DNA from: Paraflavitalea soli
Lineage (GTDB): Bacteria; Bacteroidota; Bacteroidia; Chitinophagales; Chitinophagaceae
Direction: 5' to 3'
Length of the DNA: 64,000 nucleotides
Assembly: GCF_003555545.1 (NCBI RefSeq)
Contig: NZ_CP032157.1
Coordinates: 7,010,546-7,074,545 of the forward strand
The notes below the pieces were generated by a model. That model did not search any database. It was not told the origin of the DNA and worked only from the letters and a program-made list of their open reading frames with translations. Position 1 is the stretch's first letter, and every line of letters begins with the position of its first letter. A program made the position numbers and the translations under genes. This document shows, one piece after another, positions 9,279 through 60,140 of this stretch.

Positions 9279-9360
9279 CCGTAGATAAGCCGTCTCTTTA
9301 AAGGACAGCTTATCTACGGCTTATATACAGCTTATATACGGCTTATCTACGGTTTATCCC
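9279..9360. repeat. 11-bp tandem array with an inverted unit
   Basis: Four 11-bp units GCTTATCTACG/GCTTATATACG at 9308-9351, followed by a partial unit. An inverted copy, CCGTAGATAAGC at 9279-9290, pairs perfectly with the first unit (12 bp, 17-bp loop). It lies in the 440-bp gap between the glutamine amidotransferase stop and the marR promoter. The rest of that gap (about 9120-9278 and 9361-9509) shows only G-rich stretches and no ORF or RNA gene that I can support. Confidence 0.8.
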
Positions 9361-13353: not shown

Positions 13354-13424
13354 CAAGCTGTGAGCGACGAGCAGCGAGCTTCGAGCTGCCCGCTGCCCGG
13401 TTTTGGCTCGTAGCCCGTGGCTGG
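13354..13424. repeat. Heptad array, GAGC family
   Basis: Seven near-tandem 7-bp units such as CGAGCAG, CGAGCTT and CGAGCTG at 13354-13402, followed by a partly inverted block (GGCTCGTAGCCCGTGG). It occupies the 240-bp gap between the divergent response regulator and GroES-like genes. The same family appears at 26575 and 29667. Confidence 0.75.
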
Positions 13425-15652: not shown

Positions 15653-15666
15653 GGCTCAGGGTGACA
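15653..15666. repeat. REP-like motif overlapping the recQ stop codon
   Basis: GGCTCAGGGTGACA, preceded by CCTCCGATA, resembles the dispersed motif CTTCGACAGGCTCAGGGTGACA that I know from many bacterial genomes. It is placed so that its reverse strand encodes the last residues of RecQ (Ser-Pro-stop). Confidence 0.5.
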
Positions 15667-17563
15667 ATTTGATCAAGCCTTTTTCATCTACTGATATTAT
15701 TTGTTCAGCCTGGAGGTAATTGATGACCTGCCAGGCTTTTTCTTTTTTGATGCCATTGAGCTGGAGCAACAATGCATCTGCAGTAAAGCTGTCAGGCCCG
15801 ATGATGGTGAGGATGCGTTGGTGGATCTCCTTAAACTCTTCGGTTGTTAAAGGCTGTTGCTGCCGGTTGAGGCAGTTGTCGCAGATGCCGCAGGCACGGG
15901 TGGCCTTGTCGCCAAAATAAGCAGCTATATACTGGCTGCGGCACTGTTGTTTTTCCCTTATATAGCGCACCATGGTATCTATCCGGTGCTGGTATTGTTC
16001 CTTTCTCTTTTTGTAATTGACCATGTCGATCACCAGGTCTTCTGCTTTCACGCGGCGGCGCAGGAAATACAACTGGGGTTTGTCCTTTTGTGGTATGTAT
16101 TCAATGATGGCATTGGCATCGAGTATCTTTAATTGGTTTACAATGTCGGGCTGCTCTTTTCTGAGCAGGTAAGCCAGGTTCTTTTCCTGAATACCGACGG
16201 GGCCATCAAAAATACCTTCATAGGTTCTCAGGAGGGTTTTGATGAGTGGCTCGAGGGTAGGGCTGCTTTTTTCAAATTCATACAGCCAGTCTTTATTGGT
16301 TACAAACTGTACTTTGGAAGGCAGGAATACCTGTTCATTAAAACTGAGCCAGCCATCCTGCTCCAGGGCTTTGATCACATAGGTGGTGAGCCAGGCGTCG
16401 AGTTTGAACTTGCTTACAAAATCAGTTACTTCAAAATTATAATAGACACCTTCTCCCGAGCCGGTAGGTACCTGCAGGTAGTTTACGATAGCCTGGTACA
16501 CATGGCGTATATCTTCCAGGGAAGGGAAGCGAATATCGGGCAGTGATTCCAGGTCACCTACCTCTTTGTGATCATGCAAAAGAATAGCATAGGCTTTCTG
16601 GCCATCTCTGCCGGCGCGACCCGCTTCCTGGTAATAGTTTTCCAGGCAATCGGGCACATCGGCATGTATGACGGTGCGTACATTGGGCTTGTCAATGCCC
16701 ATTCCAAATGCATTGGTACAAACGATCACGCGGGTATCATTCTTTATCCAGGCATCTTGTTTTTTGGTGCGTTCTTCCTGGGAAAGGCCTGCATGGTAGA
16801 AGTCGGCTTTGATGCCCTGCATGTTCAGTTGGTCGCTGAAGGTTTTGGTACGCTTGCGGCTTTTGCAGTACACAATGCTGCTGCCGGGTACTTTCTGTAA
16901 TATATCAATGATCTTATTGATCCGTGCTTCCTGGGCAAACTGGCTATAGGACAGGTTGGGCCGCTCAAAAGACTGGCGGAAGATACTGGGTTGTTTAAAC
17001 TCCAGCTTATCGCAAATATCCTGTTGTACAATGGGTGTAGCCGATGCGGTGAGGGCCAGGATGGGGATGCCGGGCAGTTCGGCCCGCAGGGCTGCAATGC
17101 GCATATAGGGGGGCCTGAAATCATATCCCCATTGAGAAATACAATGGGCTTCATCCACTGCTACCAGGTTCACATCGAGGCCGGGCAGGTACTCTTTAAA
17201 GAGGGATGTTTCCAATCGCTCGGGTGATACATACAGGAACTTACAATTGCTTTCGGTAGCTACTTTGAGGGCATTGATCACATCCTTGCGGCCCATGCCG
17301 GCGTGGATGGCAAATGCGGTGATGCCTTTTCTTCGAAGATTCTCCACCTGGTCTTTCATCAGGGCTATCAGGGGACTAATGACGAGGCACAATCCATCTT
17401 TCGCCATGGCGGGCACCTGGAAACAAAGGGATTTGCCTCCGCCGGTGGGCAATAAAGCCAGGGTATCTTTACCGCTAAGTACAGCAGTAATGATCTCTTC
17501 CTGAAGTGGCCGAAAGGAATGGTAACCCCAGTATTCTTTTAGTATGGAATGGATGTTGGGCAT
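15656..17563 (-). CDS. recQ: ATP-dependent DNA helicase RecQ
   Basis: 635 residues from ATG 17563. A longer frame of 29 codons upstream runs through the heptad repeats and into the neighbouring gene, so it is rejected. Walker A LLPTGGGKS spans residues 37-45, DEAH is at 137-140 with the RecQ aromatic loop HCISQWGYDFRP, and motif VI is HADVPDCLENYYQEAGRAGRDG. The zinc-binding RQC region has four Cys (CRSQYIAAYFG... CGICDNC), then a winged-helix end. No HRDC domain is present, as in many Bacteroidota RecQ copies. The role is DNA repair and restart of stalled forks. Confidence 0.97.
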   Translation of the reverse strand: MPNIHSILKEYWGYHSFRPLQEEIITAVLSGKDTLALLPTGGGKSLCFQVPAMAKDGLCLVISPLIALMKDQVENLRRKGITAFAIHAGMGRKDVINALKVATESNCKFLYVSPERLETSLFKEYLPGLDVNLVAVDEAHCISQWGYDFRPPYMRIAALRAELPGIPILALTASATPIVQQDICDKLEFKQPSIFRQSFERPNLSYSQFAQEARINKIIDILQKVPGSSIVYCKSRKRTKTFSDQLNMQGIKADFYHAGLSQEERTKKQDAWIKNDTRVIVCTNAFGMGIDKPNVRTVIHADVPDCLENYYQEAGRAGRDGQKAYAILLHDHKEVGDLESLPDIRFPSLEDIRHVYQAIVNYLQVPTGSGEGVYYNFEVTDFVSKFKLDAWLTTYVIKALEQDGWLSFNEQVFLPSKVQFVTNKDWLYEFEKSSPTLEPLIKTLLRTYEGIFDGPVGIQEKNLAYLLRKEQPDIVNQLKILDANAIIEYIPQKDKPQLYFLRRRVKAEDLVIDMVNYKKRKEQYQHRIDTMVRYIREKQQCRSQYIAAYFGDKATRACGICDNCLNRQQQPLTTEEFKEIHQRILTIIGPDSFTADALLLQLNGIKKEKAWQVINYLQAEQIISVDEKGLIKLSP

Positions 17564-17570
17564 TGTGTGT

Positions 17571-18080
17571 CGGCAATCGGCAGTCGGCAATCGGCAATGT
17601 AAGTCGCTGATTACTGGCAGGCCACCATTTTTGTAAGCATCTGGAAACACCTGATCATAATGTTTCCTAATTCTTCTATTTCGTCTTTTGTAAAGTAACT
17701 TAATGACACTGCAATATCCATTGCTGTATCTATTTCAACAAGAGAACTTCTGGCAATCTCGTAAAATCTTCTTCTTTCTGCAGCTGATCTTCTGGCAGCG
17801 CTCTCTGCAATGTTCAACTGGACTGAAAGAGCAGCTCTTCTCACCTGTTGGGTCATGTTGAACTTCTCTTCCGGAGGGAATGTTTTACTTAGTTGGTAGC
17901 AGGAAATGACGAAAGTTCTGGCTAGCTTGTAAACGTCCATTTCCTTATGGGCAAGCTGTAAAAACATGGAAATTGAATTTCCTGCAATCTACTGCTAATA
18001 TAACAGATAAGAATTAAGCGATATTTGTTTTTGCTTTTAGTTAGGGTGCATTACTGCCGATTGTCGATTGCCGACTGCCG
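17571..18080. mobile_element. Candidate mobile cassette: four-helix-bundle gene between inverted heptad arrays
   Basis: Left end 17571-17598 holds four head-to-tail heptads of the CGGCAAT/CGGCAGT type on the plus strand. Right end 18053-18080 holds four of the same family on the minus strand (CGGCAGT, CGGCAAT, CGACAAT). The 454 bp between them contains a single gene on the minus strand and is visibly more AT-rich than recQ and copA. The unit lies 7 bp upstream of the recQ start and 12 bp past the copA stop. No target duplication is obvious. Mobility is inferred, not shown. Confidence 0.5.
17611..17967 (-). CDS. Four-helix-bundle protein, 23S rRNA intervening-sequence (S23) family
   Basis: 118 residues. 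The signature pattern is MDVYKLARTFVISCYQLSKTFPPEEKF, followed by MTQQVRRAALSVQLNIAES, FYEIARSSLVEIDTA and a final helix with IMIRCFQMLTKM. This is the family first seen in intervening sequences of 23S rRNA genes, also related in fold to the accessory protein Avd of diversity-generating retroelements. Members found outside rRNA have no assigned function. The chain is all-helical and basic in helix 2 (QQVRRA...RRSAAERRR), suggesting nucleic-acid binding. No reverse transcriptase or variable repeat is nearby. It is the sole gene of the heptad-flanked cassette. Confidence 0.92.
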   Translation of the reverse strand: MFLQLAHKEMDVYKLARTFVISCYQLSKTFPPEEKFNMTQQVRRAALSVQLNIAESAARRSAAERRRFYEIARSSLVEIDTAMDIAVSLSYFTKDEIEELGNIMIRCFQMLTKMVACQ

Positions 18081-18092
18081 GTTTGCGTTGAA

Positions 18093-20216
18093 TTAAGTCA
18101 CTTTCTTTACAAAAAGCCTCACAGAGTTGATCCCCAGTACCACATCACTAAGCCCCATTACCAACGCGCCGAAGGTGGGGGTGAGTAATCCGAAGGCGGC
18201 TACGGGAATAGCAATGATATTATAAAAGAATGCCCAGAACAGGTTTTGTTTGATGGTAAGAAAAGTATGTCTGCCCAATCCCAATGACAAGGGCAGGTTT
18301 TTGATGCCCTGGTTCATGAGCACTACGTCGGCTGTTTGTACAGCTATCTGTGATGCTTCACTCAGCGAAATACCTATGGTGGCTTTGGCCAGTGCCGGTG
18401 CATCATTGATGCCGTCTCCCACCATGGCTGTAGGTCCCTGCAGGGTGAGGTCTTCTATCACGGTCAATTTCTCTTCGGGAGTTTTTTCGGCTATCACTTC
18501 ATCAATGCCCAGGAAGGTGGCCAGTTGCTGGCATTTGGCATGCCGGTCGCCACTGAGCAGGATGGTACGTATATTTCTGTGCCGCAGGTATTGTACTATC
18601 TGTATGGCTTCGGGACGTATTTCATCTTTCACATCGATCCAGCCCAGCAGCTCCTCATTTTTCAGGATGTATACATTGTGGTTGTCCTCGCGGGTATGGG
18701 CCATGGCTATCCGGTATGAACCTGCCTGGTAGACATCACCTTCTTTGGTAGTGGCCTTCATACCCTGGCCTTTTATCTCATCAATTTGCTGCCAGCGGAT
18801 ATTATCGGGTTGCTTCCATTCGGCGGCAATGCTCTGGGCAATAGGGTGGTTGGAATATTTTTCCAGGGAGACAACTATTTGTTTGAATTCGGCGAGGCTA
18901 ATATTTTCAGACAGCAGTTTATAGTTAGCCACTACAAATTTGCCGGTGGTGAGGGTGCCTGTTTTATCAAATACTACCTGCCTGATATTCCTGAAGAGTT
19001 CCAGGCTTTTGGCATTGCGGAAAAGGATGCCATTTCGGGCAGCCCGGCCCAGGCCTACAGCGATGGCGGCAGGTGTGGCCAGTCCCATGGCGCAGGGGCA
19101 GGCAATGACCAGCACGGCGATGCTGCGCATGAGGGAGGCGGTGAAATTATGCAGTATAACAAAGTTCACAATGAAGGTCACAACGGCAATACCCAGCACA
19201 ACGGGAACAAAGATGGCGCTGATCTTATCGGCCATTTGTTGTACGGGAGGCTTCTCTCCCTGTGCTCTTTTCACCAGGTTGATGATATTGGCCAATACAG
19301 AATCCTTGGCTTCGCTGGTTACCTGGGCCCTGATGGTGCCATCTATCAAGAGGCTGCCACCAATAAGCATGTCCTTCGACTTTTTGTGGAGGGGCATGCT
19401 TTCACCGGTAAGGATGGCTTCATTTACGGTAGCTTCTCCGGCGAGTATCTTACAATCGGCGGGCACCTGCTCTCCGTTCCTGATGAGGATGAGGTCGCCG
19501 GAGCGGAGGGCGGTATTTTCTACGGGGAATACATTTTCCTGTCCTTCGTGGTAAGCGATCATATTGGCCATTACTTTTTGTGAGCGGGCCAGTTTATTCA
19601 AAGCGCGTTGGGTAGATTGTATGGAAGCATCTTCCAGGAAATTGCCCAGGAAAACGAGGGTGATGACGGAGGCGGCTGTTTCATAAAAGAGAAAACCTGT
19701 GCCCAGGTTGAAAACGGTGCCGATGAGGCTGTATACAAAGGCGGCGGTGGCGCCAATGGCGACCAGTACATTCATATTGGGCATACCATTGCGTATGCTT
19801 TTGATGGCGCTGCGCCCGAAAAAGTCCATGCCTACGATGAAGACAGGCAGGCAAAGGGCCAGCTGTATCCAGGGATTCATGAGCCAGTGGATATGGACCC
19901 ATTTGTCCAGCATATGGAGCATGAGGGGGGCGGTAAACAGGAGGCAGAATAAGAAACGTTGTTTGTGGTTGGACAGGAATTTCTTTTTAGCGGGGGGGAT
20001 GATACCCTCTTCATCATGAACGGTATAACCCAGGGATTCCAGTCCTTTTACGATCTGCTGGCTGGAAGTGTTGCCGCCGTTGATGCCAAAGCTTACGTCG
20101 CCACTGGCCAGGCTCACTTTCACATCGGCCATACCTTCTTTTTCAAGGTATTTGTGGATGGTGAGTGCGCAGTTAGAACAGGTCATGCCTTCAACTTTCC
20201 AATTCACTGTTTTCAT
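18093..20216 (-). CDS. copA: Heavy-metal P1B-type ATPase, copper-exporting type
   Basis: 707 residues. An N-terminal HMA metal-binding domain has GMTCSNC (Cys13, Cys16). Six to eight transmembrane helices follow, including GMPNMNVLVAIG. Other landmarks are the actuator motif TGES, the metal-site CPC in VIACPCAMGLATP, the phosphorylation motif DKTGTLT, the nucleotide-domain His-Pro in YSNHPIAQS, and GDGINDAPAL. The last helices carry FYNIIAIPVAAFG and MGLSDVVLGIN, the copper-type pattern with Asn and Met/Ser ligands. It exports Cu(I) from the cytoplasm. No CopZ or metal-responsive regulator lies beside it. The start ATG is 20216. Confidence 0.94.
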   Translation of the reverse strand: MKTVNWKVEGMTCSNCALTIHKYLEKEGMADVKVSLASGDVSFGINGGNTSSQQIVKGLESLGYTVHDEEGIIPPAKKKFLSNHKQRFLFCLLFTAPLMLHMLDKWVHIHWLMNPWIQLALCLPVFIVGMDFFGRSAIKSIRNGMPNMNVLVAIGATAAFVYSLIGTVFNLGTGFLFYETAASVITLVFLGNFLEDASIQSTQRALNKLARSQKVMANMIAYHEGQENVFPVENTALRSGDLILIRNGEQVPADCKILAGEATVNEAILTGESMPLHKKSKDMLIGGSLLIDGTIRAQVTSEAKDSVLANIINLVKRAQGEKPPVQQMADKISAIFVPVVLGIAVVTFIVNFVILHNFTASLMRSIAVLVIACPCAMGLATPAAIAVGLGRAARNGILFRNAKSLELFRNIRQVVFDKTGTLTTGKFVVANYKLLSENISLAEFKQIVVSLEKYSNHPIAQSIAAEWKQPDNIRWQQIDEIKGQGMKATTKEGDVYQAGSYRIAMAHTREDNHNVYILKNEELLGWIDVKDEIRPEAIQIVQYLRHRNIRTILLSGDRHAKCQQLATFLGIDEVIAEKTPEEKLTVIEDLTLQGPTAMVGDGINDAPALAKATIGISLSEASQIAVQTADVVLMNQGIKNLPLSLGLGRHTFLTIKQNLFWAFFYNIIAIPVAAFGLLTPTFGALVMGLSDVVLGINSVRLFVKKVT

Positions 20217-25266: not shown

Positions 25267-25444
25267 ACAGAAAGTTTGTTTGCGGGGTGAGGTTTGTATG
25301 ATTGTTTCCCCTAAATGCTTGTTAATGAATGTGTCTGTAATGGGCTTTGCCCAGGAACAGGCAGGCATGATCGCAGGATAGGAGATGGGTGGCCTACCTA
25401 TCTCCCACGGAGCATATACGGGGCTTCCCCGGAGGAGGGTCCCG

Positions 25445-25494
25445 GTAAAGTCCCGATAAGGTCTCGAAAAGGTCTCGATAAGGTCCCGATAAGG
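25445..25494. repeat. 11-bp tandem array
   Basis: Four to five units of 11 bp, ATAAGGTCTCG/ATAAGGTCCCG with variant AAAAGGTCTCG, between the lpxD stop (25508) and lpxC. The rest of the 270-bp gap has an imperfect inverted repeat GGAGAT...ATCTCC at about 25381-25405 and nothing else that I recognise. Confidence 0.8.
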
Positions 25495-26560: not shown

Positions 26561-26574
26561 GGTTATATTTTATT

Positions 26575-26609
26575 GAGCTGTGAGCTATGAGCTGCGAGCT
26601 ACGAGCAAA
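26575..26609. repeat. Heptad array, GAGC family
   Basis: Five units such as GAGCTGT, GAGCTAT and GAGCTAC between the HD protein stop (26655) and the lpxD start. It is followed to about 26655 by a block with GGCTCGCTGCCC and GCTCGTGGCC that resembles the tail of the array at 13354. Confidence 0.8.
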
Positions 26610-26654
26610 AACAGCAAGTTGTCTGGCTCGCTGCCCGAAGCTCGTGGCCGAAGG

Positions 26655-27965: not shown

Positions 27966-28011
27966 AGAATACTGAAAGAATACAGAATTCAGAATACAGT
28001 ATACAGAAGCC
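27966..28011. repeat. Heptad array, AGAATAC family
   Basis: Units AGAATAC, AGAATTC and AGTATAC repeated at 7-bp intervals in the divergent gap between the HD gene and porX. The same family follows the TlpA-like gene at 60082. Confidence 0.8.
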
Positions 28012-28104
28012 TGGGTGCGGCCAGGGAAGGCAGAGGTGGGTGGCTTTTGAATTGCTGCTATTTGGACAAGTACCTAAATAAACAACAACTATTAAAAATT
28101 TTAC

Positions 28105-29661: not shown

Positions 29662-29666
29662 GGGAA

Positions 29667-29701
29667 GCAAGCTGCGAGCTATGAGCTTCGAGCTGCGAGC
29701 G
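29667..29701. repeat. Heptad array, GAGC family
   Basis: Five units (GCAAGCT, GCGAGCT, ATGAGCT, TCGAGCT) beginning 6 bp after the porX stop. It is the third member of the family also seen at 13354 and 26575. Confidence 0.8.
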
Positions 29702-29870
29702 AATACAACTGACTGGACAGGTGATTTAAGGTTGGATTCAGGTTTATTTCAGAAATATTGTGAGAAGTGGCTGATTTTCTGTCCACTGAGTGTGGAAAAC
29801 ATTAATAGCCCATAAACTGCTCACCGCAGACATTTGGCTAATTTTGGTAGTGAACTTTGGTAGTACGACT

Positions 29871-42578: not shown

Positions 42579-42660
42579 TGCGGATGACAGGAATCGAACC
42601 TGCATGGGTCGCCCCGCTAGATCCTAAGTCTAGTGCGTCTGCCAGTTTCGCCACATCCGC
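42579..42660 (-). tRNA. tRNA-Leu (anticodon TAG)
   Basis: Acceptor arms GCGGATG and CATCCGC with discriminator A; anticodon arm CTAGA-CTTAGGA-TCTAG with anticodon TAG reading CTA and other CTN codons; variable arm GGG-CGA-CCC; T arm with GGTTCGATTCC. The length is 82 nt and CCA is not encoded. This is a complete class II tRNA. Confidence 0.97.
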
Positions 42661-58946: not shown

Positions 58947-60083
58947 ATGAAATATCTACTATTTGCAGGGGCCGGACTGCTGCTGGCCACCCAATCCTAT
59001 GCTCAGCAATTTACAATTAAAGGCAGTGTGGCCCAGGCGGGCGAACCGATTGAATGGGTCTATATCTCCTATGCGGTTAATGGGGATCGTAAATCTGACA
59101 GCGTGCAGGTAAAGGACGGTCAGTATACTTTTTCGGGCCAGCTGACTTCGGCTACAATGGCCAACCTCCGGGTAAAATACCCGGCGGGGTCGGAATCTGC
59201 CAAAAGAAGGCCCATGCAAAGGGATTTTGCGACAGTTTTTCTGCAAAGCGGTGATATAACTATTAATAGTGTGGACTCCTTTAGCAACCTGGTAGTAACA
59301 GGTTCCAAAGCCCATGAGGAATTTGTAAAGCTGGGCGACCAGACGAAGCCCTTTAATGACCGTCGCAGGGAATTGTCCAAAGCTTATAGTGAGGCCAATA
59401 AGGCCGGTAAGAAAGAAGAAGCTGCCAAACTGGATGCCGAGATAGATGCGGTATATGATGAGATGAACGACAAGGTGTATGGCAGCTATGTGAAGGCCAA
59501 TCCGAAGTCTCCGGTTGCTTTTTACGCCTTCCAGCAATTTGCCGGGTACGATATCAAGCCTGAAAAGGCGGAGCCTGTATTTAACCTGTTGCCGAAAGAG
59601 GTACAAGGTTCTAAGGCGGGCAAGGAGATGAAAGAGCGGATCGAGATTGCCAAGAAAACAGGTGTTGGCCGTTTTGCCATGGATTTCACGCAGAATGATA
59701 CGCTTGGTAACCCGGTACACCTTTCTTCTTTTAAGGGAAAGTATGTGCTGATCGATTTCTGGGCCAGCTGGTGCGGTCCCTGCCGCATGGAAAACCCCAA
59801 TGTGGTAGCTGCCTTTAATAAATATAAGGAGAAAGGCTTCCATGTACTGGGCGTTTCGCTGGATCAACCTACTGCCAAGGAAAAGTGGATCAAAGCGATC
59901 CATGACGATAAGCTCACCTGGACGCATGTATCGGACCTTCAGTTCTGGAAAAATGCGGTAGCTGTTCAGTATGGTATACAGGCCATTCCGCAGAATTTCC
60001 TGCTCGATCCTCAGGGTAAGATCATTGGCAAGAACCTGCGTGGGGAAGACCTGCAGAAGAAGCTGGCGGAGTTGTTTAATTAG
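58947..60083 (+). CDS. TlpA-like thiol-disulfide oxidoreductase with N-terminal DUF4369 domain
   Basis: 378 residues. Signal peptide MKYLLFAGAGLLLATQSYAQ. The N-terminal half (FTIKGSVAQAGEPIEWVYISY) is a DUF4369-type beta domain, followed by a helical linker (140-230). The thioredoxin-fold C-terminal third has WCGPC (Cys276, Cys279) and the cis-Pro region IPQNFLLDPQGKIIG. It reduces or isomerises disulfides in the periplasm. The start ATG is 58947, facing away from rny with a 272-bp gap that shows no other gene. Confidence 0.93.
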   Translation: MKYLLFAGAGLLLATQSYAQQFTIKGSVAQAGEPIEWVYISYAVNGDRKSDSVQVKDGQYTFSGQLTSATMANLRVKYPAGSESAKRRPMQRDFATVFLQSGDITINSVDSFSNLVVTGSKAHEEFVKLGDQTKPFNDRRRELSKAYSEANKAGKKEEAAKLDAEIDAVYDEMNDKVYGSYVKANPKSPVAFYAFQQFAGYDIKPEKAEPVFNLLPKEVQGSKAGKEMKERIEIAKKTGVGRFAMDFTQNDTLGNPVHLSSFKGKYVLIDFWASWCGPCRMENPNVVAAFNKYKEKGFHVLGVSLDQPTAKEKWIKAIHDDKLTWTHVSDLQFWKNAVAVQYGIQAIPQNFLLDPQGKIIGKNLRGEDLQKKLAELFN

Positions 60084-60140
60084 AATACAGAATATAGAAT
60101 CCAGAATACAGAAGTAGGAAGACCGGAAGACGGAAGTCGG
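60082..60140. repeat. Heptad array, AGAATAC family
   Basis: Eight or so units at 7-8-bp spacing, changing from CAGAATA types to AGGAAGA and CGGAAGT types, beginning at the stop codon of the TlpA-like gene. The first half matches the family at 27966. Confidence 0.8.

Follow-up and report, generated by a model that had tools for sequence, protein, structure and literature searches.

Here we describe a gene of the S23 family that lies between two inverted arrays of heptad repeats, in a window of 64,000 nucleotides from Paraflavitalea soli (the whole stretch of DNA that was analysed). We conclude that this assembly, which sits between recQ and copA, is probably one copy of a mobile element in which two inverted heptad arms enclose a lone S23 gene. 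At the level of genome comparison, it can be said firmly that gene plus arms form a mobile unit that comes and goes, because the unit is present in some genomes and absent from others, occurs at unrelated sites, has near-identical empty counterparts and, in one case, is bordered by an exact 5-bp duplication of its target.

Organization of the element between recQ and copA

The S23-family (PF05635/TIGR02436) four-helix-bundle gene occupies positions 17611–17967 on the minus strand, encodes 118 amino acids (open reading frame list and profile matches) and is the single open reading frame between the two arrays. The arm on its 3′ side, a CGGCAAT/CGGCAGT array of four units at 17570–17598 on the plus strand (TCGGCAATCGGCAGTCGGCAATCGGCAAT; TRF), has its G-rich strand reading inwards. 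The arm on its 5′ side, at about 18053–18082 on the minus strand (ACTGCCGATTGTCGATTGCCGACTGCCG; TRF), is an inverted array of the same CGGCAAT family; it also has four units, one of them altered to GTCGATT, and its orientation is opposite to that of the first. Inverted four-heptad arrays of the CGGCAAT type around the S23 gene had been proposed in an earlier, sequence-only reading of this DNA, and both are confirmed at these positions. The whole element, from arm to arm, has approximate edges at 17565 and 18085 (no strand assigned). Its neighbours are close: recQ (15656–17563, minus strand) starts 6 nt from one array and the gene for a copper-type P-ATPase, copA (18093–20216, minus strand), stops about 12 nt from the other, so that recQ, the S23 gene and copA are all on the minus strand.

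Seven period-7 arrays were found in the 64-kb window at a threshold of at least 20 of 28 matches. Among 60 simulated first-order Markov sequences of 64 kb, 58 contained no such array and two contained one; the heptad arrays of the window are thus not due to chance. The description of the S23 gene as AT-rich is fair yet modest: its GC fraction is 0.406 (0.390 for the whole interval between the arrays) against 0.471 for the window, 0.486 for recQ and 0.503 for copA, but 6% of 357-nt windows are equally AT-rich. In the predicted RNA fold of the whole element, the two arms form the closing stem (z −4.57; 0 of 100 shuffles equal). An Rfam search of the window gave a tRNA at 42579–42660 as its sole match, and no rRNA gene around the element. 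By Pfam and NCBIfam, the sole gene of the element matches S23 families only; the element has no transposase gene of its own, and no Y1 transposase lies beside it.

Fold and conservation of the S23 protein

The S23 protein scores 103.3 bits against PF05635 (curated cut-off 33.8) and 92.8 bits against TIGR02436 (curated cut-off 24). Its AlphaFold2 model (pLDDT 96.9) was used for a Foldseek search, which returned 2gsc (X. campestris Xcc0516; TM 0.92) and 2rld (BT_0352; TM 0.82), as well as Avd (4dwl; TM 0.77, with an E value of 0.14 that falls short of the E 0.001 line) and the diversity-generating retroelement (DGR) particle 8ube (TM 0.77); sequence identity to Avd is 8–9%. Judged from this model, the S23 protein has the fold of Avd. 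It is devoid of a catalytic domain. Avd is a pentamer. A pentamer has been reported for X. campestris S23p as well, in a paper of 2016 that called the S23 family without known function (PMC4990558); an S23 structure (2gsc) has been public since 2006.

Comparison of the S23 gene with its orthologue in a congener (G149, see below) gave a dN/dS of 0.12. For the S23 genes that persist in the genus, dN/dS ranges from 0.02 to 0.12 at dS values of 0.65–2.4 (four of seven pairs computable), and by these ratios they are under purifying selection.

Filled and empty sites in the genus

Five genomes of the genus were compared: the present one (G000), G085, G147, G148 and G149. The S23 gene count is four in G000, two in G147, six in G149 and zero in both G148 and G085. 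The copA–recQ site is filled in two of the five (G000 and G149), both with CGGCAAT arms, and has neither element nor array in G085, G147 and G148 (L066, L067 and L069). An alignment of recQ–copA gaps from relatives, which had been put forward as a way to find empty sites, therefore finds them in three of five genomes, and the locus is not always filled. The site is too diverged between relatives for a target duplication to be read. At hisB the element is present in G000 and G149; the corresponding gap in G085 measures 10 nt, and G147 carries an array of the same family without the gene; G148, where the neighbour gene is different, was left out. At gltX the element is present in G000 and the site is empty in G085, G148 and G149; in G147 the gene is missing there but GAGCT heptads are found.

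The three empty recQ–copA sites bear out the idea of the sequence-only reading that an S23 gene with inverted heptad ends, and little else inside, is a mobile cassette, and the exact empty sites with a 5-bp target duplication on plasmids (next section) do so too. The same reading had called it a new kind of minimal mobile unit. A mobile unit of gene and arms it is, but it is a copy of a common element and not unique.

Insertions on cyanobacterial plasmids

S23 relatives were found in 46 plasmid records, mostly cyanobacterial among the matches listed. Sites A to F on these plasmids are each present in a filled and an S23-free version. In Trichormus and Scytonema plasmids, the site-A element lies between ...AAAAAGTAAT and GTAATTAAC...; L327 and L335 have this insertion, and the L326 plasmid does not differ from L327 at this place. 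In L332, L333, L340 and L341 site A reads ...AAAAAGTAATTAAC..., with no element and no array, and these empty plasmids are 97.4–97.8% identical over the match. The pentanucleotide GTAAT, which lies over the stop codon, is an exact 5-bp target duplication, and site A is the only one to have such an exact duplication. At the same position, L334 has an insertion in which the S23 gene is truncated and a single array persists: a solo array in the making.

At site F, a duplication at a stop/start overlap (TAATG/TTATG) agrees in four of five letters; at site D, TTCTA is a candidate duplication that the arm itself could supply; and sites B, C and E have no clear target duplication. Two plasmids carry the element at site B and two others, both of one strain, have no insertion there; L336 has a gene-less element at this site, where the gap at 775–1034 contains some 200–250 bp with inverted arms of the GGGAACA type, a miniature form. 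Three members of the site-A family sit at three unrelated sites (L327, L330 and L342), and the resemblance among them extends from one arm to the other but not into the flanks. The number of units per arm varies between strains (L324 versus L325; L327 versus L335). For each of the 11 cyanobacterial plasmid loci scored, one side or both gave at least 17 of 21 at period 7 or 8.

Heptad arrays flank most S23 genes

We considered CGGCAAT heptads as a mark of the S23 gene in the window and rejected the idea: the corresponding pattern (TCGGCARTCGGCA) has 208 matches in G000 and borders only one of its four S23 genes. Since most of these matches lie elsewhere and the other three genes carry other heptads, CGGCAAT heptads are not special to the gene in the window. 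This result approaches the second outcome by which the sequence-only reading would have been refuted, namely heptads of this family that are equally frequent away from S23 genes. A broader rule is the right one: inverted arrays surround most S23 genes, each gene having its own heptad. All four S23 genes of G000 lie between inverted heptad arrays of one kind each (AGAATAC, GAGCTGC, GGATTCC and CGGCAAT), with period-7 scores of 20–23 of 28 on all eight sides.

A wider survey comprised 152 S23 loci, the best matches of a much longer list: four from G000, eight from the genus, 30 from the family, 30 from the phylum and 80 named loci from many phyla. Six of the 152 are truncated by contig ends, and a further eight of 146 have short or N-rich flanks; leaving these out gave 138 usable loci, 73 of them from many phyla. 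Among these best-match loci, 92 of 138 have period 7 at 17 or more of 28 on both sides, and both-side counts are 16 for period 8, three for period 9 and 0–2 for periods 5, 6, 10, 11 and 12. Control windows at least 1 kb away have both-side period 7 in one of 63 cases (Fisher 8e-21). At a stricter 19 of 28 on at least one side, 100 of the 138 best-match loci score, versus 7 of 63 control windows. When the best period was taken for each of the best 152 loci, it was 7 in 95, 8 in 20 and 9 in one, and arms were not called in 36.

Both-side arrays were seen at best-match loci from Gemmatimonadota, Acidobacteria, Ignavibacteriae, SAR324, Omnitrophota, Verrucomicrobia, planctomycetes, gammaproteobacteria and a Methanophagales archaeon. 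An array is confined to one flank at some S23 loci (for example L209, L241, L247 and L251), and also at those from Xanthomonas, Luteimonas, Elusimicrobia and Clostridia; a Nitrospirales locus has none on either side. One S23 query found no match among 50,697 phage records.

Some S23 elements have period-8 arms such as GGCAACAA (L039, L042, L045, L051, L057 and L232), and their S23 proteins have a (S/T)YRDL(I/L)VWQKSM-like start in common.

The two arms match each other and track the protein

Arm matching was assessed on a non-redundant set of 87 loci, from which 51 of the 138 had been removed as possibly homologous, including loci that merely share a unit. Period 7 is present on both sides in 57 of these 87 best-match loci. 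In 40 of the 57, the similarity of the two units in inverted orientation exceeds the 95th percentile of mismatched pairs (direct orientation, 8 of 57), and in 33 the locus's own right arm ranks first of all 57. Arms that look direct in orientation were found at L236, L268, L220 and L322. Among best-match loci, arms are mostly four to five units long, which is a lower-bounded reading because the method has a floor of four units. Read inwards, the arms are G-rich, G outnumbering C roughly threefold (977:310 and 998:371). Telomere-like ends were set aside, since here the G-rich strand runs 5′ to 3′ inwards, the opposite of its orientation in telomeres.

Unit similarity correlates with S23 protein similarity across best-match loci (Mantel r 0.31, n = 95, 0 of 1,000 permutations; r 0.24 without close pairs). 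On a quick S23 tree (115 rows and 117 columns, with 43 of 112 inner branches open, a long-branch warning and a contribution from near-copies), the period-8 label requires nine changes against a shuffled mean of 18.7, and 0 of 500 shuffles were as low. Unit and period thus follow the S23 protein tree: arms and protein evolve together. At an orthologous S23 site in three members of the genus, the gene is in place and both arms have changed together, with GGGTTTC-like units in G147 and G149 and GGATTCC/GGATTTA-like units in G000. Orthologous S23 proteins of the genus are 72–76% identical while both arm units differ.

Arrays without the gene

Gene-less copies, either inverted pairs or single arrays, accompany S23 genes in many genomes. 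The window itself contains several (no strand assigned). A GAGC-type heptad array at 13361–13403 has an inverted copy right after it, and a GAGCTGY array at 26570–26653, with an inverted copy 13 nt on, is a miniature form of the family found around S23 gene L002. An AGAATAC array at 27971–28014 belongs to the family seen on either side of S23 gene L001. Two arrays have no clear inverted partner: a GAGCTGC array of the L002-flanking family at 29664–29702 and an AGAATAC array at 60077–60121.

Across the genus, the CGGCAAT pattern has 31 matches in G147, 16 in G149, two in G148 (where the backward control also has two) and none in G085. At 20 of 28, arrays number 18 in 400 kb sampled from G000, in addition to the seven in the window, and in 200 kb each they number eight in G147, ten in G149 and none in G085 or G148. 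In other genera, represented by genomes picked mostly for few contigs, 20 arrays were found in 400 kb of 13 S23-bearing genomes (six with arrays, and 11 of the 20 arrays in one genome), and none at this threshold in 372 kb of ten S23-less genomes. Taken together, nine of 16 sampled genomes with S23 have at least one array, versus none of 12 without it (p 0.003); at a laxer 19 of 28, there are three arrays in 772 kb of S23-less genomes. Within the family, 35 of 111 genomes that have S23 contain TAAGT arrays, against one of 36 that lack it (p 0.0002); the control for this comparison was the pattern read backwards, itself a heptad family and so not neutral. The S23-less G033 has two TAAGT matches, and the S23-less G039 has seven in the backward-read control; either S23 was lost in these two or the gene was missed in a draft.

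The unit of a dispersed array recurs among the S23 arms of the genus for 25 of 32 arrays in G000 (null mean fraction 0.36) and 11 of 17 in G149 (null 0.30). The dispersed arrays of G147, of which only 3 of 11 match and which fall below the null of 0.50, go against a strict link between arrays and S23. In G000, 31 of 32 dispersed arrays are intergenic, and 11 of the 15 with a preceding gene on the same strand start within −7 to +5 nt of its stop codon. We also considered that dispersed arrays are always paired, and rejected it on two counts. Strict alignment gave no inverted partner for any of the 32 arrays of G000 or the 11 of G147; it gave one for 1 of 17 in G149 and, in other S23-bearing genomes, for 11 of 27 (all 11 in one genome). 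By unit profile, a partner on the inner side was found for 7 of 31 in G000 (outer side 5, null 2), 10 of 16 in G149 (outer 5, null 1) and 6 of 10 in G147 (outer 0, null 1).

Tandem arrays of period 11 are present in the window at 9308–9358 (GCTTATCTACG) and 25438–25494 (GGTCCCGATAA). They occur at 1.5–4.7 per 100 kb (20 of 28) in all five genomes of the genus and, being present also where S23 is absent, are another repeat class.

A proposed mechanism and its alternatives

We infer that the S23 protein recognises or moves the ends; the sequence-only reading had already suggested that it could recognise them. As a structural relative of Avd with a pentameric crystal relative, the protein would bind an arm, probably with one heptad per subunit and on a hairpin or single strand, an arrangement that would fit the four to five units of each arm. 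The S23 ring would then hold the two arms together as a hairpin. Because S23 has no catalytic domain, cutting and joining would require a host enzyme supplied in trans. Gene-less arrays would either be copies mobilized in trans or be what is left of decayed elements, and the likeness of the two arms would be kept by unit turnover and copying between arms.

A partner enzyme was sought by presence. Y1 transposases and reverse transcriptases occur in genus members with and without S23 alike: Y1_Tnp is found in all five genomes, arrays (20 of 28) in three of five, and reverse transcriptases again in all five. The two RVT_1 matches of the present genome lie at 2.89 and 2.96 Mb and the element at 7.03 Mb. 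Neither enzyme is supported as the partner by this approach, since both are in all five genomes. Several insertions are old and have been maintained by selection, and a role in the host would fit this as well.

The element might instead move through RNA, its transcript hairpin being excised in the manner of a 23S rRNA intervening sequence and reinserted by a reverse transcriptase, with S23 as the Avd-like partner. The closing stem formed by the arms in the RNA fold (z −4.57, none of 100 shuffles as good) and the structural kinship with Avd are in keeping with this, as are the reverse transcriptases of all five genus genomes and the Coxiella rRNA intervening sequence, which has the same parts (an S23 open reading frame, terminal inverted repeats and tandem heptads; PMC4990558). 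Yet reverse transcriptases are also found where S23 and arrays are absent, inverted arms give the same hairpin in single-stranded DNA, and a short target duplication suits a DNA integrase equally well or better. We regard the RNA route as unlikely.

The probability is rather low that S23 is a nucleic-acid-binding regulator, with flanking arrays that serve autoregulation, dispersed arrays as its targets and little or no mobility at present. Such a regulator would not account for presence and absence at near-identical sites, the 5-bp duplication or the transfer of gene and arms as a block, and a change of both arm units among orthologues of 72–76% protein identity would be odd for a fixed regulon. 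Strong purifying selection on S23 and the retention of elements at sites common to genus members speak for it. So does the position of the dispersed arrays of G000 (31 of 32 outside open reading frames, 11 of 15 within −7 to +5 nt of a stop), but placement at stop codons is also expected if only harmless insertions survive.

Very unlikely, in our judgement, is a scheme in which the arrays came first, made by the host through replication slippage, and S23 genes land or survive there, so that the arrays are targets and not ends. S23-free arrays do far outnumber S23 genes, and the unit number of arms does shift between strains (L324/L325; L327/L335). Empty sites, though, are without an array (L066, L067 and L069; L332, L333, L340 and L341); the exception is G147, whose gene-less heptads at gltX and hisB fit either decay or an older array. 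Sampled S23-less genomes are nearly free of arrays, the two arms match in inverted orientation and track the protein tree, and three family members at unrelated sites have gene and arms in common but no common flank. That ordinary repeats surround the S23 gene by chance is refuted, common as CGGCAAT arrays are in G000, by the both-side period-7 arrays of four different families at all four of its S23 genes, by the 92 of 138 best-match loci versus 1 of 63 controls and by the 60 simulations.

Relation to known systems

A mobile element of one S23 gene and two heptad arms has features of several known systems. In REP/RAYT systems, dispersed non-coding hairpin repeats accompany a rarer gene that is flanked by inverted copies of the same repeats, and RAYT is a Y1 HuH transposase. 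The likeness lies in dispersed hairpin repeats and a rarer gene between inverted copies; the difference is that S23 is without a catalytic domain and that Y1 genes do not track the arrays. MITEs and insertion sequences have inverted ends and gene-less copies, as S23 elements do, and a short target duplication, as seen at site A, but S23 elements end in family-specific tandem heptads and have no transposase gene. Avd of diversity-generating retroelements has the same fold (TM 0.77), but the S23 gene has no adjacent reverse transcriptase, no template or variable repeat was noticed next to it, and its neighbours are recQ and copA.

The intervening sequences of 23S rRNA in Coxiella and Leptospira also combine one S23 gene with inverted ends that pair in RNA. 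That of Coxiella has a 28-bp stem and, before the open reading frame, tandem GACAGAT heptads whose number varies between strains, and it is suspected to be selfish (PMC4990558). The known ones lie in rRNA genes and are excised by RNase III, whereas the element in the window lies between recQ and copA. None of four LSU rRNA motifs was found at the 152 best-match S23 loci within a reach of at most 1.5–3 kb from the gene.

G-rich heptad arrays of Xanthomonas and Nostoc, mostly of four units and intergenic, were described by Rehm et al. in 2015, with 70 and 75 convergent inverted pairs in two Xanthomonas genomes (PMC4692102). The accessible text of that paper treats them as simple repeats and G-quadruplexes, with no mention of S23 or a helix bundle. 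Inverted pairs among the dispersed arrays here resemble these convergent pairs (PMC4692102). Arms of GGGATTC/GGGAATC flank Rhodanobacter S23 genes on both sides and the sole Xanthomonas S23 gene on one side; because S23 genes of these two genera carry such arms, the Xanthomonas and Nostoc repeats are probably the gene-less side of the S23 system. TAACTGA heptads of Beggiatoaceae, Cyanobacteria and Bacteroidetes, patchy in distribution and intergenic near gene starts, were reported by MacGregor in 2015, who suspected a mobile origin and proposed a repeat-binding protein as the mobile part (PMC4679880); the difference is that the accessible text of that report makes no mention of an S23 gene.

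No description of S23 genes with heptad arrays as a mobile element was found in literature titles and abstract starts, in a search that mostly excluded subscription papers and bioRxiv preprints. We tentatively propose, as a possibility rather than an expectation, that S23 elements form a separate class of recombinase-free mobile DNA in which a five-fold ring reads heptads one per subunit and borrows a host enzyme, spread over many bacterial phyla and some archaea, and that both the S23 intervening sequences of 23S rRNA and the heptads seen in Xanthomonas, Nostoc, Beggiatoaceae and other genomes originate from these elements. For a long time heptad repeats have been tallied in bacterial genomes with no cause assigned to them, and S23 elements may explain those scattered through many of these genomes. 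To link S23 and heptads gives S23 a role, the arrays a source and the rRNA intervening sequences a family.

A warning for annotation also follows, as S23 genes within operons, for example CRISPR operons, can be passengers and not parts. In PMC10910872, a figure legend has a 23S rRNA IVP entry that may be such an operon passenger. S23 elements lie in CRISPR operons of cyanobacterial plasmids at L322, L323, L328 and L339, in the contexts cas6–S23–cas4 and cas10–S23–cmr3, and the cas10–cmr3 operon of PCC 7002 is found without S23.
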